Virus record (IMG/VR): IMGVR_UViG_3300046011_010118
Span: 1 to 64,000 of that record
Origin: a virus
Direction: 5' to 3' (one strand)
Length of the DNA stretch: 64,000 bases
Shown: positions 3,818 through 59,980 of the stretch, piece by piece
Position numbering within the stretch: the stretch's first letter is position 1
Layout of the letters: each line of letters starts with the position of its first letter
Notes under the pieces: generated by a model
What the model was told of the DNA's origin: nothing
The model's input: the letters and a program-made list of their open reading frames with translations, nothing else
The model's database searches: none
Program-made: the position numbers and the translations under genes

Positions 3818-3915
3818 TAGTCAGGACAGGATTCGAACCTGTAAATCTTTTCCTTGTGTACTCTAACAATTAAGAGTGTATAAGGTTTTTACGTCTAACA
3901 TTCCGCCACCTGACT
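3818..3915 (-). tRNA. tRNA-like gene, Leu-type D-arm, anticodon not assigned
   Basis: A 98-nt element with a 7-bp acceptor (AGTCAGG/CCTGACT), a good T-arm (ACAGG-TTCGAAT-CCTGT) and a D-arm (TGGCGGAATGTTAGACG) typical of bacterial tRNA-Leu. The anticodon region is abnormal: 48 nt lie between D-arm and T-stem. They form an inner stem ACTCT/AGAGT with an 8-nt loop TAATTGTT, flanked by an outer CCTT/AAGG pairing. TAA is in the loop but not in the standard 7-nt position. It may be a decaying or interrupted tRNA-Leu(UAA), or a tRNA-like decoy. No CCA is encoded. Confidence 0.6.
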
Positions 3916-17033: not shown

Positions 17034-17047
17034 CATTTAATCATAAG

Positions 17048-17133
17048 TACCTGAGGCCGGAGTCGAACCGGCACGGGCATTTCTGCCCAAGAGATTTTAA
17101 GTCTCTCTTGTCTACCTATTTCAACACTCAGGT
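17048..17133 (-). tRNA. tRNA-Leu(UAA)
   Basis: Acceptor ACCTGAG/CTCAGGT, anticodon arm AGAGA-CTTAAAA-TCTCT with anticodon TAA, long variable arm (GGGCAGAAATGCCC), T-arm GCCGG-TTCGACT-CCGGC. Class II, as expected for Leu. It decodes TTA, a codon favoured in this AT-rich genome. No CCA encoded. Confidence 0.95.
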
Positions 17134-17175
17134 ATAAGTTAAAGGTAAGAACTTTAACTTTGGTTTCCACTTTTG

Positions 17176-17247
17176 TAGTCCCGACAAGAATCGAACTTGT
17201 ATTCTCTGCTTAGAAGGCAGATGTTCTATCCGTTGAACTACAGGACC
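17176..17247 (-). tRNA. tRNA-Arg(UCU)
   Basis: Acceptor GGTCCTG/CGGGACT with wobble pairs, anticodon arm TCTGC-CTTCTAA-GCAGA with anticodon TCT, T-arm ACAAG-TTCGATT-CTTGT. It decodes AGA, a codon favoured by the low G+C content. Confidence 0.95.
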
Positions 17248-17267
17248 TTATTTCCGAAGCTCCATAG

Positions 17268-17341
17268 TTGACCCTACAGGAATTGAACCTGTGACCTACT
17301 GATTATGAGTCAGTTGCTCTAACCAATTGAGCTAAGGGTCA
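17268..17341 (-). tRNA. tRNA-Met(CAU), elongator type
   Basis: Acceptor TGACCCT/AGGGTCA, anticodon arm ACTGA-CTCATAA-TCAGT with anticodon CAT, T-arm ACAGG-TTCAATT-CCTGT. The paired first base of the acceptor argues against an initiator tRNA. A CAT anticodon could also belong to tRNA-Ile with modified C34, which I cannot exclude. Confidence 0.9.
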
Positions 17342-17346
17342 ATTTG

Positions 17347-17417
17347 ATGTTCCTCTAGGATTCGAACCTAGACTAAGTGGACCAAAACCACTTGTGCTAC
17401 CGTTACACCAAAGAACA
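17347..17417 (-). tRNA. tRNA-Gln(UUG)
   Basis: Acceptor TGTTCTT/GGAACA with wobble, anticodon arm AGTGG-TTTTGGT-CCACT with anticodon TTG, T-arm CTAGG-TTCGAAT-CCTAG. It decodes CAA. Confidence 0.93.
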
Positions 17418-17532
17418 TTTTGAGGAAAGCAGTAGATGGGTGCGTGGACAACTGCTTTTATGATTAGCTTTACTAACCTAAGTCCTAATCAACCTCAGTG
17501 GCGTCAATGCTTGTTTTAGCACCGTCTTCAGG
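17418..17532 (-). other. 115-nt spacer with two stem-loops inside the tRNA cluster
   Basis: No tRNA T-arm or ORF is evident. On the minus strand it can form GATTAG...CTAATC with a 17-nt loop and AAAGCAGT...ACTGCTTT around a 17-nt loop. All other tRNA spacers here are 5-45 nt, so this long structured spacer may be a separate small RNA, a processing element, or a degraded tRNA. Confidence 0.35.
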
Positions 17533-17604
17533 TACTCTGTAGGGGATTCGAACCCCTATTACCTCCGTGAAAGGGAGGTGAACTAACCCTTATTCGAACA
17601 GAGC
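17533..17604 (-). tRNA. tRNA-Glu(UUC)
   Basis: Acceptor GCTCTGT/ACAGAGT, anticodon arm CCTCC-CTTTCAC-GGAGG with anticodon TTC, T-arm TAGGGG-TTCGAAT-CCCCTA. It decodes GAA. Confidence 0.94.
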
Positions 17605-17608
17605 ATCT

Positions 17609-17684
17609 GTCGGGGAAGCAGGATTCGAACCTACGACCTCTTGGTCCCAAACCAAGCATACTACCGGACTGTACTATTCCCCGA
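17609..17684 (-). tRNA. tRNA-Pro(UGG)
   Basis: Acceptor TCGGGGA/TCCCCGA, anticodon arm CTTGG-TTTGGGA-CCAAG with anticodon TGG, T-arm GTAGG-TTCGAAT-CCTGC. It decodes CCA and other Pro codons, notable because the window encodes a very Pro-rich repeat protein. Confidence 0.93.
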
Positions 17685-17949: not shown

Positions 17950-18026
17950 CTTTTTTCGTTTTTGTTAAAAAATTTAAGCGACCATAAATATATGGTTACT
18001 TATTTGGGTTTCCAAATTTAATTTAG

Positions 18027-18410
18027 TGGAGGAGACGGGAATCGAACCCGTGTATCCATAAGGAACAATAACACCAGCGTATCACATGCTTAGATCTGCA
18101 AGCTGATCAGTAATTGGGGACGCTAGTTTTGGTTAGCGTGCCTACCACCACCTAATTTTATGAAACTAGGAAAACTAGAGCTATAATACTGAGACTATAG
18201 CGGGGTTGCTGTTCTGTTGCAAGGCTATCAGCTGCCCCTTGCGGATTAGGCTGCTACAGCGTAATCGGCACCTACGAACGCCATTAAGTCGTCGAAGGTC
18301 ATTGTTGACATTTCGTCATTTATTGGTTGAAAATTTGTTTAAAGACGACATATCCAAACGTCTGCATGTAGTGGTACCTTCACATTACGGAGCAATACCT
18401 GGACTCCCCC
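18027..18410 (-). ncRNA. ssrA: transfer-messenger RNA (tmRNA)
   Basis: A 384-nt RNA gene. The ends form a 7-bp acceptor (GGGGGAG/CTCCTCC, one G-U) followed by discriminator A, with a T-arm containing GGGTTCGATTCCCG at the 3' end, the tRNA-like domain of tmRNA. The internal tag frame (18246-18281) reads AFVGADYAVAA then stop, ending in the hydrophobic AA degradation signal of SsrA tags. Host-type tags in Bacteroidota commonly end in YALAA, so this differs. tmRNA with SmpB rescues stalled ribosomes and marks incomplete proteins for proteolysis. I see no smpB in the window, so host SmpB is probably used. Confidence 0.93.
18246..18281 (-). other. tmRNA proteolysis-tag reading frame
   Basis: Eleven codons from GCG (likely resume codon) to TAA, encoding AFVGADYAVAA. 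The last residues, YAVAA, fit recognition by ClpXP-type proteases. The resume position is inferred from the tag's usual start with Ala. Confidence 0.8.
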
Positions 18411-18438: not shown

Positions 18439-18831
18439 CTAAAGATTCTTTATGGTTCCAATTAAATTATCTACTGCTTCTTTCTTTCGTTTACGAGTAG
18501 TTTTTTTAGGAAGACCATTTATAATTTTTTCTTTTGCCTTAACTAATTCGGCACATAACTCATATTCTTCAAGTTCAATAAGAAGATCTAAATTTTTTTC
18601 TAGATTTTCTAAAAAATTAGTTTCTTCAACATTCAAACAAACTATTTCCTTCGACTTAGGAATTATAATTTCAGCAAATACTGTTTTTGATTTTCCAAAT
18701 TTAATACAGTGTATAATAGCTTCAACTATTTTTACAGCAAATTCATATCTATAATCTTCAAATACTGTTTTAGGAGCATTTGTTCTTATAGATAAAGGTT
18801 CAAAAATGGTAATATTTGCTTTAGTTGCCAT
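18439..18831 (-). CDS. hypothetical protein with UVR-like helix, paralogue of 20620-21009
   Basis: 130 residues. LEKNLDLLIELEEYELCAELVKAKEKI near residue 82 resembles LEKAQTYFMDLEQYEMCADIQKLIESL in the protein at 20620-21009 and recalls the UVR motif of UvrB/UvrC. The C-terminus is basic (KKTTRKRKKEA). Function unknown. Its start overlaps the stop region of 18821-18997. Confidence 0.55.
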   Translation of the reverse strand: MATKANITIFEPLSIRTNAPKTVFEDYRYEFAVKIVEAIIHCIKFGKSKTVFAEIIIPKSKEIVCLNVEETNFLENLEKNLDLLIELEEYELCAELVKAKEKIINGLPKKTTRKRKKEAVDNLIGTIKNL

Positions 18832-19406: not shown

Positions 19407-19616
19407 TTAGTTTATTACATCTACAATTGGTGAAGTAATAGCTGCCTTAATTTCAAAGTTACGTTCGCTTCTTTCAACTAAATACTTAGTCATTTTAGCT
19501 TCAGCTTCAGTAACTGATACAGCATCAATAAGGTAATCTACTTTTTGTCTTTTAATTTTACCTTTTTCATCTTCAAGTTGAAATTCAACTTTAACTGTGT
19601 AATACTTGTTTTCCAT
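19407..19616 (-). CDS. DUF4494-like protein, 69 aa
   Basis: I start it at MENKYYTVKVEFQLEDEKGK because an upstream frame to 19715 would overlap the preceding gene's end out of phase. WxVKV-like strand, KVDYLIDAVSVTEAEAKMTK and a terminal strand match the DUF4494 family, which is characteristic of Bacteroidota. Function unknown; the presence supports the host assignment. Confidence 0.65.
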   Translation of the reverse strand: MENKYYTVKVEFQLEDEKGKIKRQKVDYLIDAVSVTEAEAKMTKYLVERSERNFEIKAAITSPIVDVIN

Positions 19617-19647
19617 AATCTTGATTTTGTTTTTGTGTTTATAAATA

Positions 19648-20301
19648 TTATTTTGTATAAGCAATAAATTCAGATCCAGGTTCATCATCATCGTCATCTT
19701 CATCCCATAATCCAAGTGATTTCATATTTTCAATTTGTTCTGGTGATAGTTCCCACTCGTGAGGTGTTGCTTTTACTTCTGTATTGTCTTCAATATGTCT
19801 AACTTGATTTGGAGTTAATGGATCAGCAACGTATAAGAAATAACAATTGTAGCATGTTAATTCTAGATTATCAAGTAAATAGTTATTTTTATTTCCATCT
19901 TTAAAATTCAATAATAATGGTATTTTATAGTCAGTTACTCTGCGTTCATTAAATCCACATTTACAGCATTCTTCTTTTAAATACCCTTCAGTTATTATTC
20001 TTGATTTTATTTTTTCAGGTGTAAATGATTCCCACCCAGTACCAGTTTCAACTATGATTTTAACATTTGGTTCTTTGCGTTTATTAGGTAAAAATTTGGG
20101 AATACCCTTACCGCTTTGATTTTTATGTATTTCGAATAATGAAGGTGAATCTATATCTCCATCATTTACTTTATATTGTTTAGCCCAAGGTTTATAATGC
20201 TGGTATGATACTCCTAAATAGCGAGCAGCAGCACGATTTGATTTTGTAAATCGCATTGCACGCAATATATCTTCTTTACTTAATGGTTTAGGAGCAGGCA
20301 T
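19648..20301 (-). CDS. HTH plus degenerate HNH-type zinc protein
   Basis: 217 residues. The N-terminus (SKEDILRAMRFTKSNRAAAR YLG in order, residues 8-30) reads as a helix-turn-helix that includes AARYLGVSYQHYKPW. The middle has ECCKCGFNE and later LELTCYNCYFLY, two CxxC pairs around NFKDGNKNNYLLDN, as in HNH nucleases, but the His expected before the DGN element is missing (LLLNFKDG). It may be a DNA-binding protein derived from an HNH enzyme. The C-terminus is very acidic. Confidence 0.55.
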   Translation of the reverse strand: MPAPKPLSKEDILRAMRFTKSNRAAARYLGVSYQHYKPWAKQYKVNDGDIDSPSLFEIHKNQSGKGIPKFLPNKRKEPNVKIIVETGTGWESFTPEKIKSRIITEGYLKEECCKCGFNERRVTDYKIPLLLNFKDGNKNNYLLDNLELTCYNCYFLYVADPLTPNQVRHIEDNTEVKATPHEWELSPEQIENMKSLGLWDEDDDDDEPGSEFIAYTK

Positions 20302-20702
20302 TACTTTTTAACTTGTTTTATTAATTCCCATAAATCCTCAATTCGCTCTAAAGGAATAGGATTATCATCTTCATCATATATTGGATTAATAGTTCCATCA
20401 GGATTAGTTCTTTCATAAACATAAAAGCTAACTAATTCACCTGCTTCTTTTCCAAAATGCATAAAAATAAAACTATCAATTATTTGGAAAAACGGTTCAT
20501 CATACTTAGTCATATCAAGCCCATAATCAATATGCATCATAGGCCCTCTATTTACAATATGTGTTAATAAGGAAATAGTACTAATGAATATTTCTCGTTG
20601 AGTATCTTCGTTTGTCTTTTTACGACGTTTTAGAGTACTTTGAGCCCCTATTATTTGATTTATCTGCTCTTGAAGTTTTTCTATGTATTCTTTTTGATCC
20701 AT
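20301..20702 (-). CDS. hypothetical phage protein
   Basis: 133 residues. Coiled-coil-like basic N-terminus (YIEKLQEQINQIIGAQSTLK), aromatic middle and acidic end. Not recognised. It overlaps the upstream gene by 83 nt and shares one base with the next start, so it belongs to the 18.4-21.4 kb unit. Start context AGTTATG. Confidence 0.55.
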   Translation of the reverse strand: MDQKEYIEKLQEQINQIIGAQSTLKRRKKTNEDTQREIFISTISLLTHIVNRGPMMHIDYGLDMTKYDEPFFQIIDSFIFMHFGKEAGELVSFYVYERTNPDGTINPIYDEDDNPIPLERIEDLWELIKQVKK

Positions 20703-21009
20703 AACTATTTAATGATTCTATTAATTTTTGAATGTCAGCACACATTTCGTATTGTTCTAAATCCATAAAATATGTTTGTGCTTTTTCTAATGATTGTTTC
20801 CAACCAGTACGATCAAGTGAAATATAATTCCCTGTAGAGTTTAATTCTATAATAGTTGCTTCAGATTTATTTGTTTTAGCTGCTGATTTTATTCCTTCAA
20901 CAATACTATTATAAAGTATGTCTTTTATTTGTACATTTTCTTGAATTGCTGTAAAGTCAATTCCTTCTTGGACAGTAATATACAAATTAGGAATTTTTCT
21001 TTTAGACAT
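20620..21009 (-). CDS. hypothetical protein with UVR-like helix, paralogue of 18439-18831
   Basis: 129 residues. Shares the EQYEMCADIQKLI helix with the protein at 18439-18831. The basic C-terminus (KRIHRKTSRADKSNNRG) overlaps the next gene's coding sequence over 83 nt, which constrains both. Function unknown. Confidence 0.55.
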   Translation of the reverse strand: MSKRKIPNLYITVQEGIDFTAIQENVQIKDILYNSIVEGIKSAAKTNKSEATIIELNSTGNYISLDRTGWKQSLEKAQTYFMDLEQYEMCADIQKLIESLNSYGSKRIHRKTSRADKSNNRGSKYSKTS

Positions 21010-21020
21010 ATCCAGTAGTT

Positions 21021-21395
21021 TTATACTTGTTCTTTTTCAGCACCTCCAGTTTCCAATGCTGATTTGATAAGCATTTTGATATTATTTAGGCTAATTAAAA
21101 ATCCAATAACATTTTCATAAGGTACATCTAAATCAACGTCAACACTTAACATATGAGGAGCTAAACCAGCATTTAACTTGGTTTTTAACTTTTGTGTTAA
21201 TTCTTCTTTTTGACTTTGAGTATATCCTTTAGGTAATATAAATTGAACTTTAATACCCTTTTTAGTTGGGTTTGAATTAACGTCTAATTTTAAGCGAGGT
21301 GATGTAGATGTATCAACTTCAACATCTGCTGTTGCTTCTACTTCTTCTGCTTCAAGATATAACTTTAACTCTTCTAATATGCTAATTGGTTTCAT
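21021..21395 (-). CDS. hypothetical protein
   Basis: 124 residues: Glu/Val/Thr-rich N-terminus, a beta-rich middle (GIKVQFILPKGYTQSQKEEL), then amphipathic C-terminal helices. Not recognised. ATATTTATA lies at 21408-21416, 13 nt upstream of its start, so a transcript may begin here, downstream of the glycan operon. Confidence 0.5.
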   Translation of the reverse strand: MKPISILEELKLYLEAEEVEATADVEVDTSTSPRLKLDVNSNPTKKGIKVQFILPKGYTQSQKEELTQKLKTKLNAGLAPHMLSVDVDLDVPYENVIGFLISLNNIKMLIKSALETGGAEKEQV

Positions 21396-41206: not shown

Positions 41207-43792
41207 TTATCCAAACTTAAAGAACTTGTTGATGTTGTTATTGAATATTGGTTTTCCCCATTTCAAATCCTCATATAGTGTTTCTAATTTGTTTTTTAAC
41301 ATTGAATCAAATAACTGTACTTTATCCAGGTATTTTTCAATAAATTCTGTAATAAATGGAGGATCATCATATCCATTAAATCCAATAACATCAATTCGAT
41401 ATGGGTTATCTTTTAAATATGCTATAAACATTTTATCTCCAATTTGAAATGCATTGTGTTTTTTATCTAACTTCTTAAATTTAAGTAAGTCATTATAGTA
41501 AATAGCTGCTTTAGTATTGATAGGACATTTCAATTCCAATTTAGAGAATATTTCGCCTGCTTGTGGAGGTGAAGCAATATATTCAGCCATATTTTTTAAT
41601 CCAGTAGGTTTAAGTAGCAAGCGCCAATCTACTGTGTTGATGCTTTCTCTGAATGTAATGATTTGTTTGTCTATTTCTGGTTTGGGTTTACCAAACATGA
41701 TATCTTGAATTAATCCCTTTGCAAATTTTCTAAAGTAAGGAGCAAAGTTAGATTTCATTAGATCTAATCCTTTAATATCTAGTTCTTCAGTTGGTACACC
41801 TTCTTTATTTACAATAAATTGAGCGTAACGTCTTTTACCTGCAAAGTATCCTCGCTCAAGTACTACCTCTTGCTTTAATTCAAAATAATGAGGACGATCA
41901 TGTAGATTGAATAATTCTACTACTAGTGTGTTTAAGTTTTCATTTGCTGCTTTTTGAATTTCAGTAGCAACTTCTAAAACATATTTTACTGCTTCCTCTC
42001 TACTACTTAAATCTACATTAGGATGCCTTTTCTGGATTAGATCCTTAACTTGAATGAATAGTGAATCGGTATCTGAAGTTACAATATAATCAATACCTTC
42101 AGTTTCCATTTGTTTATTCATCCATTTATTTACATACTTGATTGATTCTTGAGTTAGTCTTTGTCCTGTAAGTGTAATTGCTTTAGATATGAATTTATGT
42201 CCATCAGTGTATCTCCATCCATTAATTGCAAATACACCGTAAACGTCATTTAATTTAATTTTATAAGCGTGTTGACGTCTGTTGTAAAAGTCTCCCATAA
42301 CAGGATCTTTATCTACTTTAAACGCCTTTTTCATTTTATTTTTATATTCAACACGTTTGTTGAACCAATCACTTAAGATATCACACACTACTGAATTTTT
42401 ATCTTTACGGAATATTACTCCAGGTGCAGATATAATCCAATTTTCACTTTCAATTAATTTTACTATTTTACCTACTGTAATAACAGAGCGTGATATATTT
42501 TTATTTGAATTGATTTTCTCAATAGTTACTTCAGTATCTGGATTTAGTAGTTTTAATTCTTTTAAAGACCATTGATTGTCATATTTGTCTTTATTTACAA
42601 TTCTACCTATTAATGTTTCAATACCCATATTCAAGGATCGAATAATTGATGGATATAGTGAGGTAAAGTCCAAATCAATAACCCATTCATATAATCCTGG
42701 TGTTGGGTCTTTTAAATATCCACCAGCATATTCTTCCTTAATATCTTTTAAATTAGGATTGTATGTAGTAGGTTTATTTGGTGAAACTATATCTTTACGC
42801 TTCAAATACGTTAAAATAGCACCCTCATTAAGTGCTGTTGACAGATATATTTGTTCGTAAGGTACATGGCACAAGTGAGATACAGTAACAGTTAGATCAA
42901 TAAATTTAAGTTTATTTTCAAGCGCAACTATAATTTCAACGTCACGCAAATTATATTCAATAAACTTATTTACATCCTCTTTAAATAATTTATCTAACGA
43001 TCCTAAGTAATCTACTTTACCTAAATCAACATATTTCTCTCCAATATTACCTAAGGCATAAGATGGTTCTTGTGTTGTAATATACTTTTTAAACAGCAGC
43101 ATATAGTCAAGATGGTTTACACCTGCTATAGTAGTATATTTTGCCCCTGCAAATTCGCCTTCATCTACCTTTTTAAGTGGAGATAAACGTGCTGCTTGGC
43201 TTTCACCCAATACATTTGCAATACGATGGTATAAGTAAGGAATATCAAAGAACTCACTATTCCATCCTGTTATAATTGTTGGATCTAATTCTTCCCATTT
43301 GTCAAGGAACTTATACATTAATTCCTTTTCTGTAAAGCAAGGTACTACAGTTTTGTTTTCATTTGTAGATTCAGTCATTGTCTTTGCTTCATCTAAAATA
43401 TAACAGTAATACATTTTAGTACTATTGTCATATAAAGCAATGGCTGTTAATTTACCTGCTGGATTGCGAACTGTATCTTGAGTAAGTGCACCTGCAATTT
43501 CACATTCAATGTCTAAATAAATTATATTTTGATATTCAGGTGTATCATCTGATTCATAATATGCATCTACAAGTACACGAGTATATTTGTCAACATCACT
43601 TTCAAATACATTTGGATCTTTATACCCATATTGTTTTGTAGGTGATACACGTTGCCCATCTAGTGTTTCGTATTGGCCCCTTTCATCAGCGACATAGCAG
43701 GTGGCTCGATATGGAAATTCGAGCCAACCTTTTTTATCGTCGCGTAAGTGATATTTCTTTTCTCCTCTATTGTAATAGATTGCTTGATACAT
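41207..43792 (-). CDS. 43: family B DNA polymerase, T4 gp43-like
   Basis: 861 residues, against 898 for T4. Exonuclease motif YLDIECE near residue 97 and DYLGSL/NLRDVEIIVALE further on; polymerase motif A DLDFTSLYPSIIRSLNMG near 375, motif B KIKLNDVYGVFAINGWR near 515, motif C TSDTDSLF near 572. Replicates the phage genome with 3'-5' proofreading. Last gene of the replication block, preceding the glycan genes. ORF is intact, with no intein or intron. Confidence 0.95.
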   Translation of the reverse strand: MYQAIYYNRGEKKYHLRDDKKGWLEFPYRATCYVADERGQYETLDGQRVSPTKQYGYKDPNVFESDVDKYTRVLVDAYYESDDTPEYQNIIYLDIECEIAGALTQDTVRNPAGKLTAIALYDNSTKMYYCYILDEAKTMTESTNENKTVVPCFTEKELMYKFLDKWEELDPTIITGWNSEFFDIPYLYHRIANVLGESQAARLSPLKKVDEGEFAGAKYTTIAGVNHLDYMLLFKKYITTQEPSYALGNIGEKYVDLGKVDYLGSLDKLFKEDVNKFIEYNLRDVEIIVALENKLKFIDLTVTVSHLCHVPYEQIYLSTALNEGAILTYLKRKDIVSPNKPTTYNPNLKDIKEEYAGGYLKDPTPGLYEWVIDLDFTSLYPSIIRSLNMGIETLIGRIVNKDKYDNQWSLKELKLLNPDTEVTIEKINSNKNISRSVITVGKIVKLIESENWIISAPGVIFRKDKNSVVCDILSDWFNKRVEYKNKMKKAFKVDKDPVMGDFYNRRQHAYKIKLNDVYGVFAINGWRYTDGHKFISKAITLTGQRLTQESIKYVNKWMNKQMETEGIDYIVTSDTDSLFIQVKDLIQKRHPNVDLSSREEAVKYVLEVATEIQKAANENLNTLVVELFNLHDRPHYFELKQEVVLERGYFAGKRRYAQFIVNKEGVPTEELDIKGLDLMKSNFAPYFRKFAKGLIQDIMFGKPKPEIDKQIITFRESINTVDWRLLLKPTGLKNMAEYIASPPQAGEIFSKLELKCPINTKAAIYYNDLLKFKKLDKKHNAFQIGDKMFIAYLKDNPYRIDVIGFNGYDDPPFITEFIEKYLDKVQLFDSMLKNKLETLYEDLKWGKPIFNNNINKFFKFG

Positions 43793-56034: not shown

Positions 56035-59000
56035 TTATACACAATATAGATATCCAAGTTTACCTGTATAAACTGTAATTGCTATATCTTTATTTGTGGT
56101 ACCTGAATTGATTATAAATTGAGTGCCTAAACAATCTAAATTATCACAATATGTAAAGCTATTAGCAGGGCAAGTACTTGTATCATCAGTAGCATTAAAT
56201 GATATACCAGTAGATCCACATTCTATTACAGCAAATGCTATATCTTGATTTTGGCTTAATGTAACACTACCATTTGATGAACAAACATCAGAAGTAGGAC
56301 AGTCTGCTTGGCCTCCTAAATATTGCCATACACCTCTTCCAGCACATCCATTCAAACGATAATAAATTTCATATCCATTTCCTACACCACTAGTACCTTG
56401 TTTACTATACACGGTAATTGTCACATTTGAAGAAGCTCCTGAAGGTGAAGGTGTAGGTGTAACTGAAGGTGTTGCAGTAATACTTGGGGTAGGTGTTATA
56501 CTAGGTGTTGCTGTTCTAGTAGGTGTTGGAGTAATACTTGGTGTAGTTGTTCTTGTTGGTGTTGATGTTATACTTGGTGTAATTGTTCTAGTTGGTGTTG
56601 ATGTTATACTTGGTGTAATTGTTCTAGTTGGTGTAATTGATGGAGTTGGTGTAATTGATGGAGTTGCAGTTCTAGAAGGCGTTGATGTTATACTTGGTGT
56701 AATACTTCTACTAGGAGTAATACTTGGTGTAGCTGTAATACTTGGAGTAGGTGTTATACTCGGAGTAGAAGTTATACTAGGTGTAATAGTACGTGTTGGT
56801 GTGATTGACGGTGTTGCCGTAATTGACGGTGTTGGCGTAATCGACGGTGTAGAAGTAATTGACGGTGTTATTGTTCTAGTAGGAGTAATACTCGGAGTAG
56901 CCGTAATTGTTGGTGTTGGTGTTATACTCGGAGTAGAAGTAATACTAGGAGTAATTGTTACAGATGGTGTAATTGTTCTAGTAGGTGTTATACTCGGAGT
57001 AGCAGTAATTGTTGGAGTAGGGGTAATACTTGGAGTTACAGTTACACTAGGAGTAATTGTTCTAGTAGGTGTTATACTCGGAGTAGCAGTAATTGTTGGT
57101 GTTGGTGTTATTGACGGTGTTACAGTAACACTTGGTGTAATTGTAGCTGTTGGAGTAATACTCGGTGTTGCTGTTATTGATGGAGTAGCAGTAATCGATG
57201 GTGTTACAGTTACACTAGGAGTAATTGTAGCTGTTGGAGTAATACTGGGAGTTGCAGTTATACTTGGTGTAATTGTAACACTAGGTGTAATTGTTCTTGT
57301 TGGAGTAATACTCGGTGTTGCTGTAATCGATGGAGTAATTGTTACACTAGGAGTAATTGTACTTGTAGGTGTAATTGTTACCGAAGGAGTTATAGTAGAC
57401 GTTGGTGTAATACTTGGTGTTACTGTTACAGATGGAGTAACTGTCACTGTCACAGACGGAGTAATGCTTGGTGTTACTGTTACTGAAGGAGTAATTGTGG
57501 CTGTAACTGAAGGTGTTACTGAAGGCGTTACAGTAACTGATGGTGTAATAGTAACAGTTGGAGTTATAGTACGAGTTGGAGTAATTGAAGGAGTAACTGT
57601 AACTGATGGAGTAACGGTTACACTAGGTGTAATTGTAACTGAAGGAGTTATAGTTGAAGTTGGTGTTATAGAAGGAGTTACTGTTACAGAAGGTGTAACT
57701 GTAACTGTTACTGATGGTGTAATACTAGGAGTAACGGTAACTGAAGGTGTGATAGTAGCTGTTACTGAAGGTGTAACTGTTATACTTGGAGTTACAGTAG
57801 CTGTCACAGATGGAGTAATACTCGGTGTTACAGTAACTGATGGTGTAATAGTAGATGTTGGTGTTATTGTTCTAGTAGGAGTAATACTTGGAGTTACTGT
57901 TACACTAGGTGTCACTGTAACAGAAGGTGTTACTGTAGAAGTCGGTGTTATAGAAGGAGTAACAGTTACGCTAGGTGTAATAGTAGAAGTTGGAGTAATT
58001 GTAGGTGTTACTGTTACAGAAGGTGTAACTGTGACTGTTGGAGTAACTGTTACTGAAGGTGTTATTGTTCTAGTAGGAGTAATACTTGGAGTTACTGTTA
58101 CTGAAGGTGTTATGGTTACTGTTACAGATGGAGTAATGCTTGGTGTTACTGTTACACTAGGAGTTACTGTTGCTGTTACAGATGGAGTTACTGTTACTGA
58201 AGGTGTAACTGTAACTGTTACAGATGGAGTAATAGAAGGAGTTATAGTAACAGATGGGGTAATTGTTCTAGTAGGAGTAATACTAGGAGTTACAGTAACA
58301 GAAGGAGTTACAGTAGCTGTTGGAGTTACTGTACTTGAAGGTGTAATTGTTGTTGTTGGTGTGATTGAAGGAGTAATTGTTACACTAGGTGTTACTGTTA
58401 TAGTTGGTGTAGCAGTTATACTAGGTGTTACTGTAACTGTTGGTGTTATACTAGGTGTGGCAGTAATACTCGGTGTTACAGTAACAGATGGAGTAATAGT
58501 AACAGATGGTGTAATTGTAGAAGTTGGTGTTATAGAAGGAGTGACAGTTACACTAGGTGATATTGTTGCTGTTATAGAAGGAGTAACAGTTACACTAGGG
58601 GTAATAGTAGCCGTTACAGATGGAGTTACAGTTACACTTGGAGTTACAGTAGCTGTTACTGAAGGTGTAACTGAAGGAGTAATTGTAGAAGTTGGAGTAA
58701 TACTTGGAGTTATAGTCACACTAGGAGTAACAGTAACTGTTGGAGTTACAGTTGAAGAAGGTGTAATAGTAACTGTAGGAGTGATGCTTGGTGTTACTGT
58801 CACAGATGGTGTTACAGTAGATGTAGGTGTCACTGTTACTGAAGGTGTAACTGTGCTTGTAGGTGTAATGCTTGGAGTAACAGTACTAGTAGGTGTAATT
58901 GTTCTTGTAGGTGTAATTGATGGAGTTACAGTCACACTAGGAGTAATAGTAACAGAAGGTGTTACAGTTGCTGATGGTGTGATTGTTGAAGTTGGAGTAA

Positions 59001-59559
59001 TTGTAGGTGTTACTGTTACACTAGGTGTAACGGTAACTGTTGCAGAAGGAGTTATAGAAGGTGTAACTGTAGCTGTTGGCGTTATAGTAGTAGTTACAGA
59101 TGGAGTAACAGTTGCGCTAGGTGTTACAGTAACAGTTACGCTAGGTGTTATAGTTGGAGTAACAGTTACTGATGGAGTAACAGTAGCAGTTACAGATGGA
59201 GTTATGGTCGCGCTAGGTGTCACTGTTACTGAAGGTGTAACTGTAGCTGTTGGCGTTATACTTGGGGTAACTGTTACGCTTGGAGTAGCAGTAATAGAAG
59301 GAGTAATTGTTACTGTTGGTGTTATTGTTGCCGATGGTGTTACAGTAAACGATGGAGTAATGGTAACAGTTGGGGTTATAGACGGGGTAGCCGTTATACT
59401 CGGAGTAACAGTAACAGACGGTGTTACAGTTGCTGTTACTGTTGGAGTCGGAGTAATACTAGGAGATACGAGAAAAGATAGTTTAAATTCGCCACTATCA
59501 TTATTGTTAACTAATCTAAAGTTACCTCCCCCACCTGTGTTTGATAGTGTCAATGGCAT
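56035..59559 (-). CDS. giant Ser/Thr/Pro repeat surface protein with Cys-rich C-terminal domain
   Basis: 1,174 residues. A short head (MPLTLSNTGGGGNFRLVNNN, ending FKLSFLVSP) is followed by about 1,000 residues of six-residue-type units such as TPSVTV, TPSITP, TPTVTI and, near the end, TPTRTI, then a 135-residue domain with VTITVYSKQGTSGVGNGYEI, eight or more Cys and a hydrophobic end. This is like a stiff, mucin-like or PT-rich linker holding a distal domain. Ser/Thr make up about half of the repeats, a good substrate for glycosylation. Acceptor of the phage glycosyltransferases is a hypothesis. The reverse strand also lacks stops here because of codon bias. Confidence 0.8.
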   Translation of the reverse strand: MPLTLSNTGGGGNFRLVNNNDSGEFKLSFLVSPSITPTPTVTATVTPSVTVTPSITATPSITPTVTITPSFTVTPSATITPTVTITPSITATPSVTVTPSITPTATVTPSVTVTPSATITPSVTATVTPSVTVTPTITPSVTVTVTPSATVTPSVTTTITPTATVTPSITPSATVTVTPSVTVTPTITPTSTITPSATVTPSVTITPSVTVTPSITPTRTITPTSTVTPSITPTSTVTPSVTVTPTSTVTPSVTVTPSITPTVTITPSSTVTPTVTVTPSVTITPSITPTSTITPSVTPSVTATVTPSVTVTPSVTATITPSVTVTPSITATISPSVTVTPSITPTSTITPSVTITPSVTVTPSITATPSITPTVTVTPSITATPTITVTPSVTITPSITPTTTITPSSTVTPTATVTPSVTVTPSITPTRTITPSVTITPSITPSVTVTVTPSVTVTPSVTATVTPSVTVTPSITPSVTVTITPSVTVTPSITPTRTITPSVTVTPTVTVTPSVTVTPTITPTSTITPSVTVTPSITPTSTVTPSVTVTPSVTVTPSITPTRTITPTSTITPSVTVTPSITPSVTATVTPSITVTPSVTATITPSVTVTPSITPSVTVTVTPSVTVTPSITPTSTITPSVTITPSVTVTPSVTVTPSITPTRTITPTVTITPSVTVTPSVTPSVTATITPSVTVTPSITPSVTVTVTPSVTVTPSITPTSTITPSVTITPTSTITPSVTITPSITATPSITPTRTITPSVTITPSITATPSITPTATITPSVTVTPSITATPSITATPSITPTATITPSVTVTPSITPTPTITATPSITPTRTITPSVTVTPSITPTPTITATPSITPTRTITPSVTITPSITSTPSITPTPTITATPSITPTRTITPSITSTPSITPTPSITATPSITPTRTITPSITSTPSITPTPSITATPSITPSRSITPSITSTPSRTATPSITPTPSITPTRTITPSITSTPTRTITPSITSTPTRTTTPSITPTPTRTATPSITPTPSITATPSVTPTPSPSGASSNVTITVYSKQGTSGVGNGYEIYYRLNGCAGRGVWQYLGGQADCPTSDVCSSNGSVTLSQNQDIAFAVIECGSTGISFNATDDTSTCPANSFTYCDNLDCLGTQFIINSGTTNKDIAITVYTGKLGYLYCV
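56440..59466 (-). repeat. 3-kb minisatellite encoding (T/S)P(S/T)(V/I)T repeats
   Basis: Continuous array with a basic 18-nt (six-codon) period and 12-nt variants, in which synonymous third positions vary between copies so that few long identical stretches exist. The arginine variant (TRTI) is spread through the array but is denser toward the C-terminal end. Boundaries are approximate. Confidence 0.85.
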
Positions 59560-59562
59560 GCA

Positions 59563-59571
59563 TATAAATAT
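59563..59571 (-). promoter_or_regulatory. late-type promoter-like 9-mer ATATTTATA
   Basis: Exact copy only 4 nt before the ATG of the repeat protein and within the end of the phosphoribosyltransferase region. The very short distance to the start is unusual; it may act with a leaderless or near-leaderless transcript, or be coincidental. Confidence 0.35.
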
Positions 59572-59572
59572 T

Positions 59573-59980
59573 CTACTTTAGCAAATAATCAGCTACGGAC
59601 TTACTGTCTTTATTTTCCCAAGGATACACTATCCATTCGTTTTCATAAGCAATTTCCCAAAAGTAGTCTGGTTGGTATTCAGATGATTGTTTCCAGTGTA
59701 AAGTAGCTGTATAGATATTTTCTTCAAATTTAAATTGTTTTAATGTTCTACCTGTATCACTGATATCATCTACAATTAAAATATTTCCAAATATATTTTT
59801 TATATTAGCTTGAGACACGAATGGAATACCTAATCTATGAGATAGCATAACTGCTGGAATTAAACCTCCACGAGGTAATCCTCCAACAGCATTAATTTTA
59901 ATTTCACTACTATTAATACTAGCAATTATTCTATTAATTGCTCTATCAATATCATTCCAAGTTAAAAATCGTCTGTCCAT
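59573..59980 (-). CDS. phosphoribosyltransferase
   Basis: 135 residues. NAVGGLPRGGLIPAVMLSHR near residue 31 and ILIVDDISDTGRTLKQF near 67, the PRPP-binding motif. The compact form resembles xanthine/guanine phosphoribosyltransferase (Gpt), so purine salvage from host breakdown products is likely. It overlaps folE by one base. Confidence 0.82.
   Translation of the reverse strand: MDRRFLTWNDIDRAINRIIASINSSEIKINAVGGLPRGGLIPAVMLSHRLGIPFVSQANIKNIFGNILIVDDISDTGRTLKQFKFEENIYTATLHWKQSSEYQPDYFWEIAYENEWIVYPWENKDSKSVADYLLK

Follow-up and report, generated by a model that had tools for sequence, protein, structure and literature searches.

Why would a phage carry its own transfer-messenger RNA (tmRNA), and with it a proteolysis tag of its own? 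The tags of tmRNAs are usually regarded as short degrons of the host. The question is raised by a 64,000-base stretch of viral DNA, hereafter the window, which comprises bases 1-64000 of the 66,091-base IMG/VR virus record IMGVR_UViG_3300046011_010118 and holds a tmRNA gene (ssrA) with the tag DEMSTMTFDDLMAFVGADYAVAA. This tag has 23 residues, about twice the usual length; passages of PMC11915505 give 10 amino acids as the commonest length of tmRNA tags. We consider it probable, at roughly 0.78, that the gene encodes a working phage tmRNA, which would borrow SmpB from the host and add a long, phage-specific degron. Related viruses probably use their own label to govern what becomes of unfinished proteins, since the tail peptide is conserved in many of them and was not found in bacterial genomes.

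The gene is complete and of the one-piece form. The covariance model RF00023 matched it with 65.2 bits (E 3.5e-23) over the full length of the model (positions 1-374 of 374), above the gathering score of 47 bits that was used as cut-off for tmRNA counts, and ARAGORN called it as well. The permuted two-piece model RF04321 reached 21.1 bits in the window, where 47 are needed. The predicted ends form an acceptor stem with 7 of 7 pairs, including the G3-U70 wobble of alanine identity, and a T-arm with 5 of 5 pairs. A first-pass annotation of the window had described a complete, phage-encoded ssrA gene with pairing ends and a T-arm, located beside a lipoprotein gene, and had proposed a covariance search and ARAGORN as checks. 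Both checks bore out the gene, the stems pair as it had stated, and a 57-residue lipoprotein-like open reading frame (ORF) lies next to the gene on the same strand (Table 1). The phage origin is upheld by the virus record itself, by the same type of gene in related virus contigs, and by the tag not being found in bacteria. The annotation had also placed tmRNA genes in a minority of phages, which agrees with the 402 phages, or 2.3% of available genomes, given in passages of PMC9004378.

Relatives were chosen independently of the tag, by a search of IMG/VR with the family-B DNA polymerase of the window. The best 80 of 86 relatives were taken and gave 79 IMG/VR loci, referred to as the polymerase set. 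By polymerase, the closest named phage is Microcystis phage Mel-JY01, with 34.6% identity; neither the tmRNA nor 23 kb of the window, used as DNA queries against the phage collection, gave a match. RF00023 was over the cut-off in 23 of the 79 records (19/40 and 4/39), and in 12 of the 20 records of at least 100 kb. Its absence from the remaining records says little, because many are fragments. Matches below the cut-off at E<=0.001 were not counted, since this looser level fires in all 14 control genomes, archaea included, 9 of which are over the cut-off. Partial RF00023 matches of 75-79 nt were considered as decoys consisting of a tRNA-like domain only, an idea given up when seven of them were found by ARAGORN to be tRNA-Ala (5), tRNA-Pro (1) and tRNA-Met (1). 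The tag frames of the 23 tmRNAs, read by script from the resume codon, are all long. Seventeen are of the window's type (type 1, 23-25 residues) and six are of a second type (type 2, 35 residues), which begins with Gly. ARAGORN called 17 of the 23, several of them with a shortened tag. One of the 23 (L004, in record G003) equals the window throughout the 3,387 bases that were compared. Among 19 distinct sequences, of which L098 is exactly the window gene, the acceptor stem has 7/7 pairs, position 3-70 is G-U and the T-stem has 5/5 pairs in every case. Bases differ without loss of pairing at positions 5-7 of the acceptor stem and 1-4 of the T-stem, which amounts to compensatory changes in both stems.

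The frame of the type-1 tag carries a clear mark of selection. In 14 distinct polymerase-set sequences, the ratio of nonsynonymous to synonymous differences per site (pN/pS) amounts to 0.279 when computed in the tag frame, and to 1.68 and 1.77 when the frame is shifted. The N-terminal extension (0.270) and the core (0.282) are alike in this respect, and the other frames of these halves range from 1.41 to 2.07. The variable sites are the synonymous ones (pS 0.512, pN 0.143), with 351, 169 and 826 differences at codon positions 1, 2 and 3, and the tags differ in length by whole codons. A second set was selected by the tag itself and comprises 140 loci, namely 80 kept out of the 319 type-1 loci, and the 60 type-2 loci, found by tag scans of IMG/VR. 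The type-1 pN/pS in 40 distinct sequences of this set is 0.181, a value biased towards peptide conservation by the search. Selection at the protein level on the window's tag type, extension included, is well supported by these comparisons. The motif AATAA[AC][TC] stands before the tag in 70 of the 77 tag-set type-1 loci whose match starts with Asp. The C-terminus of the window tag is AVAA, which is small and hydrophobic and is followed by the stop TAA. The first-pass annotation had read the tag as AFVGADYAVAA, which is only its last 11 residues, and had contrasted it with tags ending in YALAA; this contrast does not hold, as 29 of the 79 complete type-1 tags of the tag-selected set end in YALAA and 50 in YAVAA. 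Judged by sequence comparison, the window tag differs from the usual ones by its length and its conserved N-terminal extension, not by its ending. No convincing tag-like stretch was seen in the other proteins of the window.

By ARAGORN or Rfam at the cut-off, 128 of the 140 tag-selected loci are tmRNA genes. Of these, 124 were recognized first, followed by L181, L244, L245 and L266; L176 was counted through its identity to L174, and L181 scored 59.6 bits in the later search against 32.1 in the whole-record search. The remaining loci are five with a group I intron, L264 at 41.7 bits, which is under the cut-off, and six that are cut by contig ends. The introns match RF00028 with 91.8-96.4 bits and lie 3' of the tag in five type-2 phage tmRNA genes. 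Both ARAGORN and Rfam miss these loci because the intron hides the tmRNA gene. In L253 and L254, the intron breaks the T-loop (GTT|CGA) and the exons are about 702 nt apart; tmRNA genes with an intron breaking the T-loop region are described in passages of PMC11915505. Tag scans of genome_contigs, which covers 84,980 species, matched 5 type-1 and 30 type-2 stretches, none of which was confirmed. The absence from bacteria is thus strong, not absolute, since the scans use short peptide patterns. A scan of plasmids, made with type 2 only, did not find that tag. Among named phages, the type-1 tag had no match, while the type-2 tag matched 29 Flavobacterium phage records, whose listed hosts are F. 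psychrophilum. One of the named phages, Fpv20, has an unannotated RF00023 match of 58.2 bits at the place of its type-2 tag, which has 35 residues. In Cellulophaga phage Calle_1, a related type-2 tag of 30 residues, with the stretch NAQIEANM and the end AVGV, was read from the sequence; passages of the Calle_1 paper report one tmRNA (PMC8776804). In the Calle_1 record (MT732432.1, 42950-43361, L309), the annotated tmRNA spans 43002-43361 and the full Rfam match 42950-43311. Apart from Calle_1, type-2 tags have 35-38 residues overall. The paper listings and passages covered, which leave out most subscription journals, hold no description of these long-tag families.

These observations suggest the following course of events. 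With its acceptor stem and the G3-U70 pair, which are observed, the tmRNA would be charged by the alanyl-tRNA synthetase of the host, and host SmpB and EF-Tu would deliver it to ribosomes stalled on broken mRNA. Translation would then resume at GAC, after AAUAAAU, and add 23 residues before UAA, in the frame that is seen to be under selection. The AVAA end would be read by host ClpXP, as is established for similar ends. The conserved N-terminal extension is not explained by neutral spacing or RNA structure alone; most likely, it provides a protease, adaptor or unfoldase with an additional contact during infection. A phage ClpP-like subunit that works with host ClpX may be part of the partner in some relatives. 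The phage would benefit in that ribosomes are freed during the decay of phage and host mRNA and the fate of tagged proteins is decided. The roles proposed in the first-pass annotation, namely rescue after mRNA decay and tagging for a different protease, are plausible.

Candidate protein partners were searched for in the phage records. PF00574, the ClpP family, was over the cut-off in 13 of 41 records, of which 11 are among the 23 polymerase-set tmRNA records and 2 among 16 tag-set records. In the former 11, the ClpP-like gene lies 3-4 kb upstream of the tmRNA, in the same cassette. Of 48 polymerase-set records without a tmRNA (8 short fragments left out), three have PF00574; two of these contigs stop short of the tmRNA site, and in the third, L032, the ClpP is divergent and the cassette is missing. 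A match to solved ClpP was obtained with the ClpP-like protein that was tested, and the catalytic Ser and His are present in seven aligned sequences. Of 14 ClpP-positive records that were searched, 9 also encode an S77 (T4-type) head protease, so that the role of head protease need not fall to the ClpP-like protein. A gene for SmpB was found in 1 of the 41 phage records, so the others must rely on the SmpB of the host. This phage SmpB is encoded at G015:9561-9983 (L267; PF01668, 165.5 bits), and the same record has the most divergent type-1 tag (L082). Phage ClpX and SspB were over the cut-off in 0 of 37 records each, with three weak partial ClpX matches below it.

Several results weigh against a working phage tmRNA with a degron of its own. 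Support for the pseudoknots is only partial: candidates of the H-type (PK1-like) lie upstream of the tag in 12 of 16 distinct sequences, six of the 16 have a candidate that outscores 60 dinucleotide-shuffled versions (p<=0.05), and the candidate of the window (L098; p 0.049) looks unconvincing, as its form extends into the start of the tag. When 32 records with a tmRNA or a tag were searched over their whole length, 27 were over the cut-off, 3 were below it and 2 had no match; an intron explains three of these five cases. The type-2 tag has a weaker signal of selection, with a pN/pS of 0.55 in the tag-selected set, where 36 distinct sequences were compared (0.57 when positions in the search patterns are left out), and of 1.18, like the other frames, in the polymerase set, where it has 3 distinct sequences only. 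Selection at the protein level on type 2 is thus only moderately supported. A structure model of the type-2 tag, with one helix at residues 10-34 (predicted local distance difference test, pLDDT, 76), was not used as evidence. By hhalign, the two tag types show no significant likeness (E 0.041, probability 1.3). As for partners, the window record has no SmpB match and PF00574 is not over the cut-off there, nor is it in Fpv20; ClpP as a necessary partner is ruled out by the window. The tag is equally conserved without ClpP, which is thus not needed for its conservation. In a tree of 36 chosen records, ClpP occupies the whole of one polymerase clade (13 of 13 rows, including two contigs that break off ahead of the tmRNA site) plus a single row elsewhere (L032), so the link of ClpP and tmRNA looks like one inheritance, not repeated evolution. 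Moreover, one ClpP-like protein that was scanned matches head-maturation protease families of PHROGs better than ATP-dependent ones, and in one sequence aligned with the solved ClpP 6hwm, the position of the catalytic Asp is Glu. The idea of a different protease keeps some support from the upstream ClpP-like gene, though the window record lacks it.

Other explanations of the gene have to be weighed against these data. The tmRNA could merely add rescue capacity, or replace a host tmRNA that is lost during infection, with an ordinary ClpXP degron and an extension that has no role of its own. We regard this as possible, though clearly the less probable account: tRNA genes adjoin the tmRNA, as in other translation-supplement clusters, and the YAVAA and YALAA endings resemble those of ordinary tags, but the extension is constrained like the core and was not found in bacteria, and for dosage a 9-residue tag would be enough. 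Such tags do occur in IMG/VR, where the coding pattern of GENNYALAA was found in seven contigs, all tmRNAs with the 9-residue tag at the same place. The extension could also be conserved for RNA structure, with helix 5 or a pseudoknot extending over the frame, and not for its peptide. In favour of this, helix 5 overlaps the end of the tag frame in bacterial tmRNA, and the synonymous variation of type 2 is low (pS 0.218); the synonymous position of most type-1 variation and the changes of tag length by whole codons make it very unlikely.

Phage tRNAs are counter-measures to tRNA-cleaving defences, and the tmRNA gene lies near phage tRNAs. Together with two unlike long-tag types in neighbouring clades of the polymerase tree, this would fit a divergent tmRNA that evades an attack on the host tmRNA or on tagging by it, be it from a host nuclease or from a shutdown triggered by the phage. 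Neither a defence nor a target was identified, none having been searched for, and the data do not separate this role from others; we hold it to be unlikely. Genes for tmRNAs are also common integration sites, so that a captured host tmRNA or an attachment-site relic without function comes to mind. A tmRNA as integration site is raised for a Maribacter phage in passages of PMC11590407. Against a relic stand the complete gene, the compensatory changes in its stems, the selection on its tag, the failure to find these tags in bacterial genomes and the conserved cassette that the gene adjoins, and we find this explanation scarcely credible.

Table 1 Positions of the tmRNA gene, its parts and its neighbours in the window, and of introns in other tmRNA loci.
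Feature	Position	Strand	Basis or remark
tmRNA (ssrA), one-piece form, complete	18024..18410	minus	RF00023, 65.2 bits; ARAGORN ends 18026-18410
Acceptor stem, 5' strand GGGGGAG	18404..18410	minus	holds G3 of G3-U70
AATAAAT motif	18318..18324	minus	immediately 5' of resume codon
Tag frame, resume codon GAC to stop TAA, 23 codons: DEMSTMTFDDLMAFVGADYAVAA	18246..18317	minus	ARAGORN and frame reading
T-arm, 5/5 pairs, loop TTCGATT	18035..18051	minus	
Acceptor stem, 3' strand	18028..18034	minus	then bases ACTA; CCA not encoded
Six tRNA genes (Leu, Arg, Met, Gln, Glu, Pro)	17047..17683	minus	ARAGORN, Rfam; downstream of tmRNA
Small lipoprotein-like ORF, 57 residues	17776..17949	minus	between tmRNA and tRNAs, downstream of tmRNA
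C0tm, 130 residues, function unassigned	18439..18831	minus	adjoins tmRNA
C3, DUF4494 protein	19407..19715	minus	PF14902, E 8e-11; true start probably internal
C2, HNH-endonuclease-like	19648..20301	minus	phrog_14736, E 1.7e-10; Pfam HNH just E 0.083
C4, conserved cassette protein	20301..20702	minus	
C0up	20620..21009	minus	clusters with C0tm
C1, conserved cassette protein	21021..21395	minus	clpP upstream of C1 in ClpP-bearing relatives
Group I introns in other loci	L222:1709-1924, L246:1706-1964, L253:1718-1941, L254:420-643, L255:1743-1967		RF00028

In ten ClpP-bearing regions, the cassette has the order large ORFs, ClpP-like gene, C1, C0up, C4, C2, C7, C3, tRNAs (mostly), C0tm and tmRNA. The window and its near kin (G001, G002, G003 and G005) have the same order of proteins without ClpP and C7, and with the tRNAs after the tmRNA; the large ORFs upstream are glycosyltransferases in the window, and in G002 C0tm and the tmRNA are separated by an extra ORF. 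The type-1 tmRNA of G015 and of G018 is instead followed by a distant C0tm-like ORF. A scan of 103 loci, made up of tmRNA loci and type-1 tag loci, found C0tm at 36, so that many type-1 tmRNAs either have another location or come with insufficient flanking sequence. Among the type-2 members of the polymerase set, G007, G011 and G055 were fetched, and no cassette protein was found near their tmRNA. Two orthologues of C0up weakly match the UVR motif PF02151 (E 0.004 and 0.006, under the cut-off), and the C-terminal stretch of C0tm is UVR-like by eye only. Pfam gave no match for C0tm and two relatives, UVR motif included, and the predicted fold of the C0tm relative L113 (pLDDT 85.7) had no match in the Protein Data Bank at E<=0.001. 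The window phage probably infects Bacteroidota, and probably Flavobacteriia, in view of its DUF4494 protein, a family that we take to be of Bacteroidota, and of the cultured carriers of type-2 tags.

In the ClpP clade, C0tm ends a few bases 5' of the tmRNA or overlaps its 5' end. The frame overlaps the tmRNA by 24-27 nt in L277 (reverse complement), L279 and L282, and the gap is 5-6 nt in six other regions. Because of this overlap, processing of the tmRNA 5' end would strip the stop codon of C0tm, and self-regulation through nonstop mRNA is possible. It is doubtful that phages of Bacteroidota go as far as to run a tag-and-degrade channel of their own, with a bipartite degron read by the phage ClpP-like subunit, by C0tm and C0up as adaptors, or by both. 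If they do, proteins from stalled ribosomes would be routed to phage-controlled proteolysis and would bypass the usual pathway of the host.

Two further observations concern other parts of the window. A tRNA match to RF00005 of 36.3 bits, over the gathering score, covers 98 nt at 3818-3915, where ARAGORN makes no call. A 926-residue open frame at 56801-59581 (plus strand) is antisense to most of a 1174-residue gene at 56035-59559 (minus strand) and is perhaps compositional. The 1174-residue protein matches phrog_15511 as a whole (E 1.9e-38), with no single stretch passing alone.

In the searches made, the tag families of 23-25 and 35-38 residues turned up in virus records only. They are spread over hundreds of contigs, with type 1 clearly conserved at the protein level, and are easily overlooked because ARAGORN missed or shortened many of them. 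Such tags could serve protein engineering as new degrons. Among known systems, phage tmRNAs have been described for mycobacteriophages such as Bxz1 and Wildcat, Bacillus phage G and the OM43 phage Melnitz, and the passages in question mention neither a long conserved tag family nor a ClpP neighbour (PMC4131195, PMC9004378). By the same passages, Melnitz differs further in having a permuted two-piece tmRNA with a glutamine riboswitch. Host-like bacterial tmRNAs (RF00023, GENNYALAA) share with the window gene the one-piece form and the AA at the end of the tag, which starts at nt 94 in the window gene and at nt 95-97 in these; their tag has 9 residues, against the lengths given above for types 1 and 2. 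A long tag is also known from Mesoplasma florum, where it is reportedly 27 residues long and is read by Lon; in contrast to the present case, the gene is cellular, the host has no ClpXP and the tag sequence is unrelated. Calle_1, whose tmRNA is annotated in its record, and Fpv20, whose tmRNA is not, carry long tags as well, of type 2 where the window has type 1. With these cultured carriers at hand, the question of why a phage wants its own degron is directly testable.
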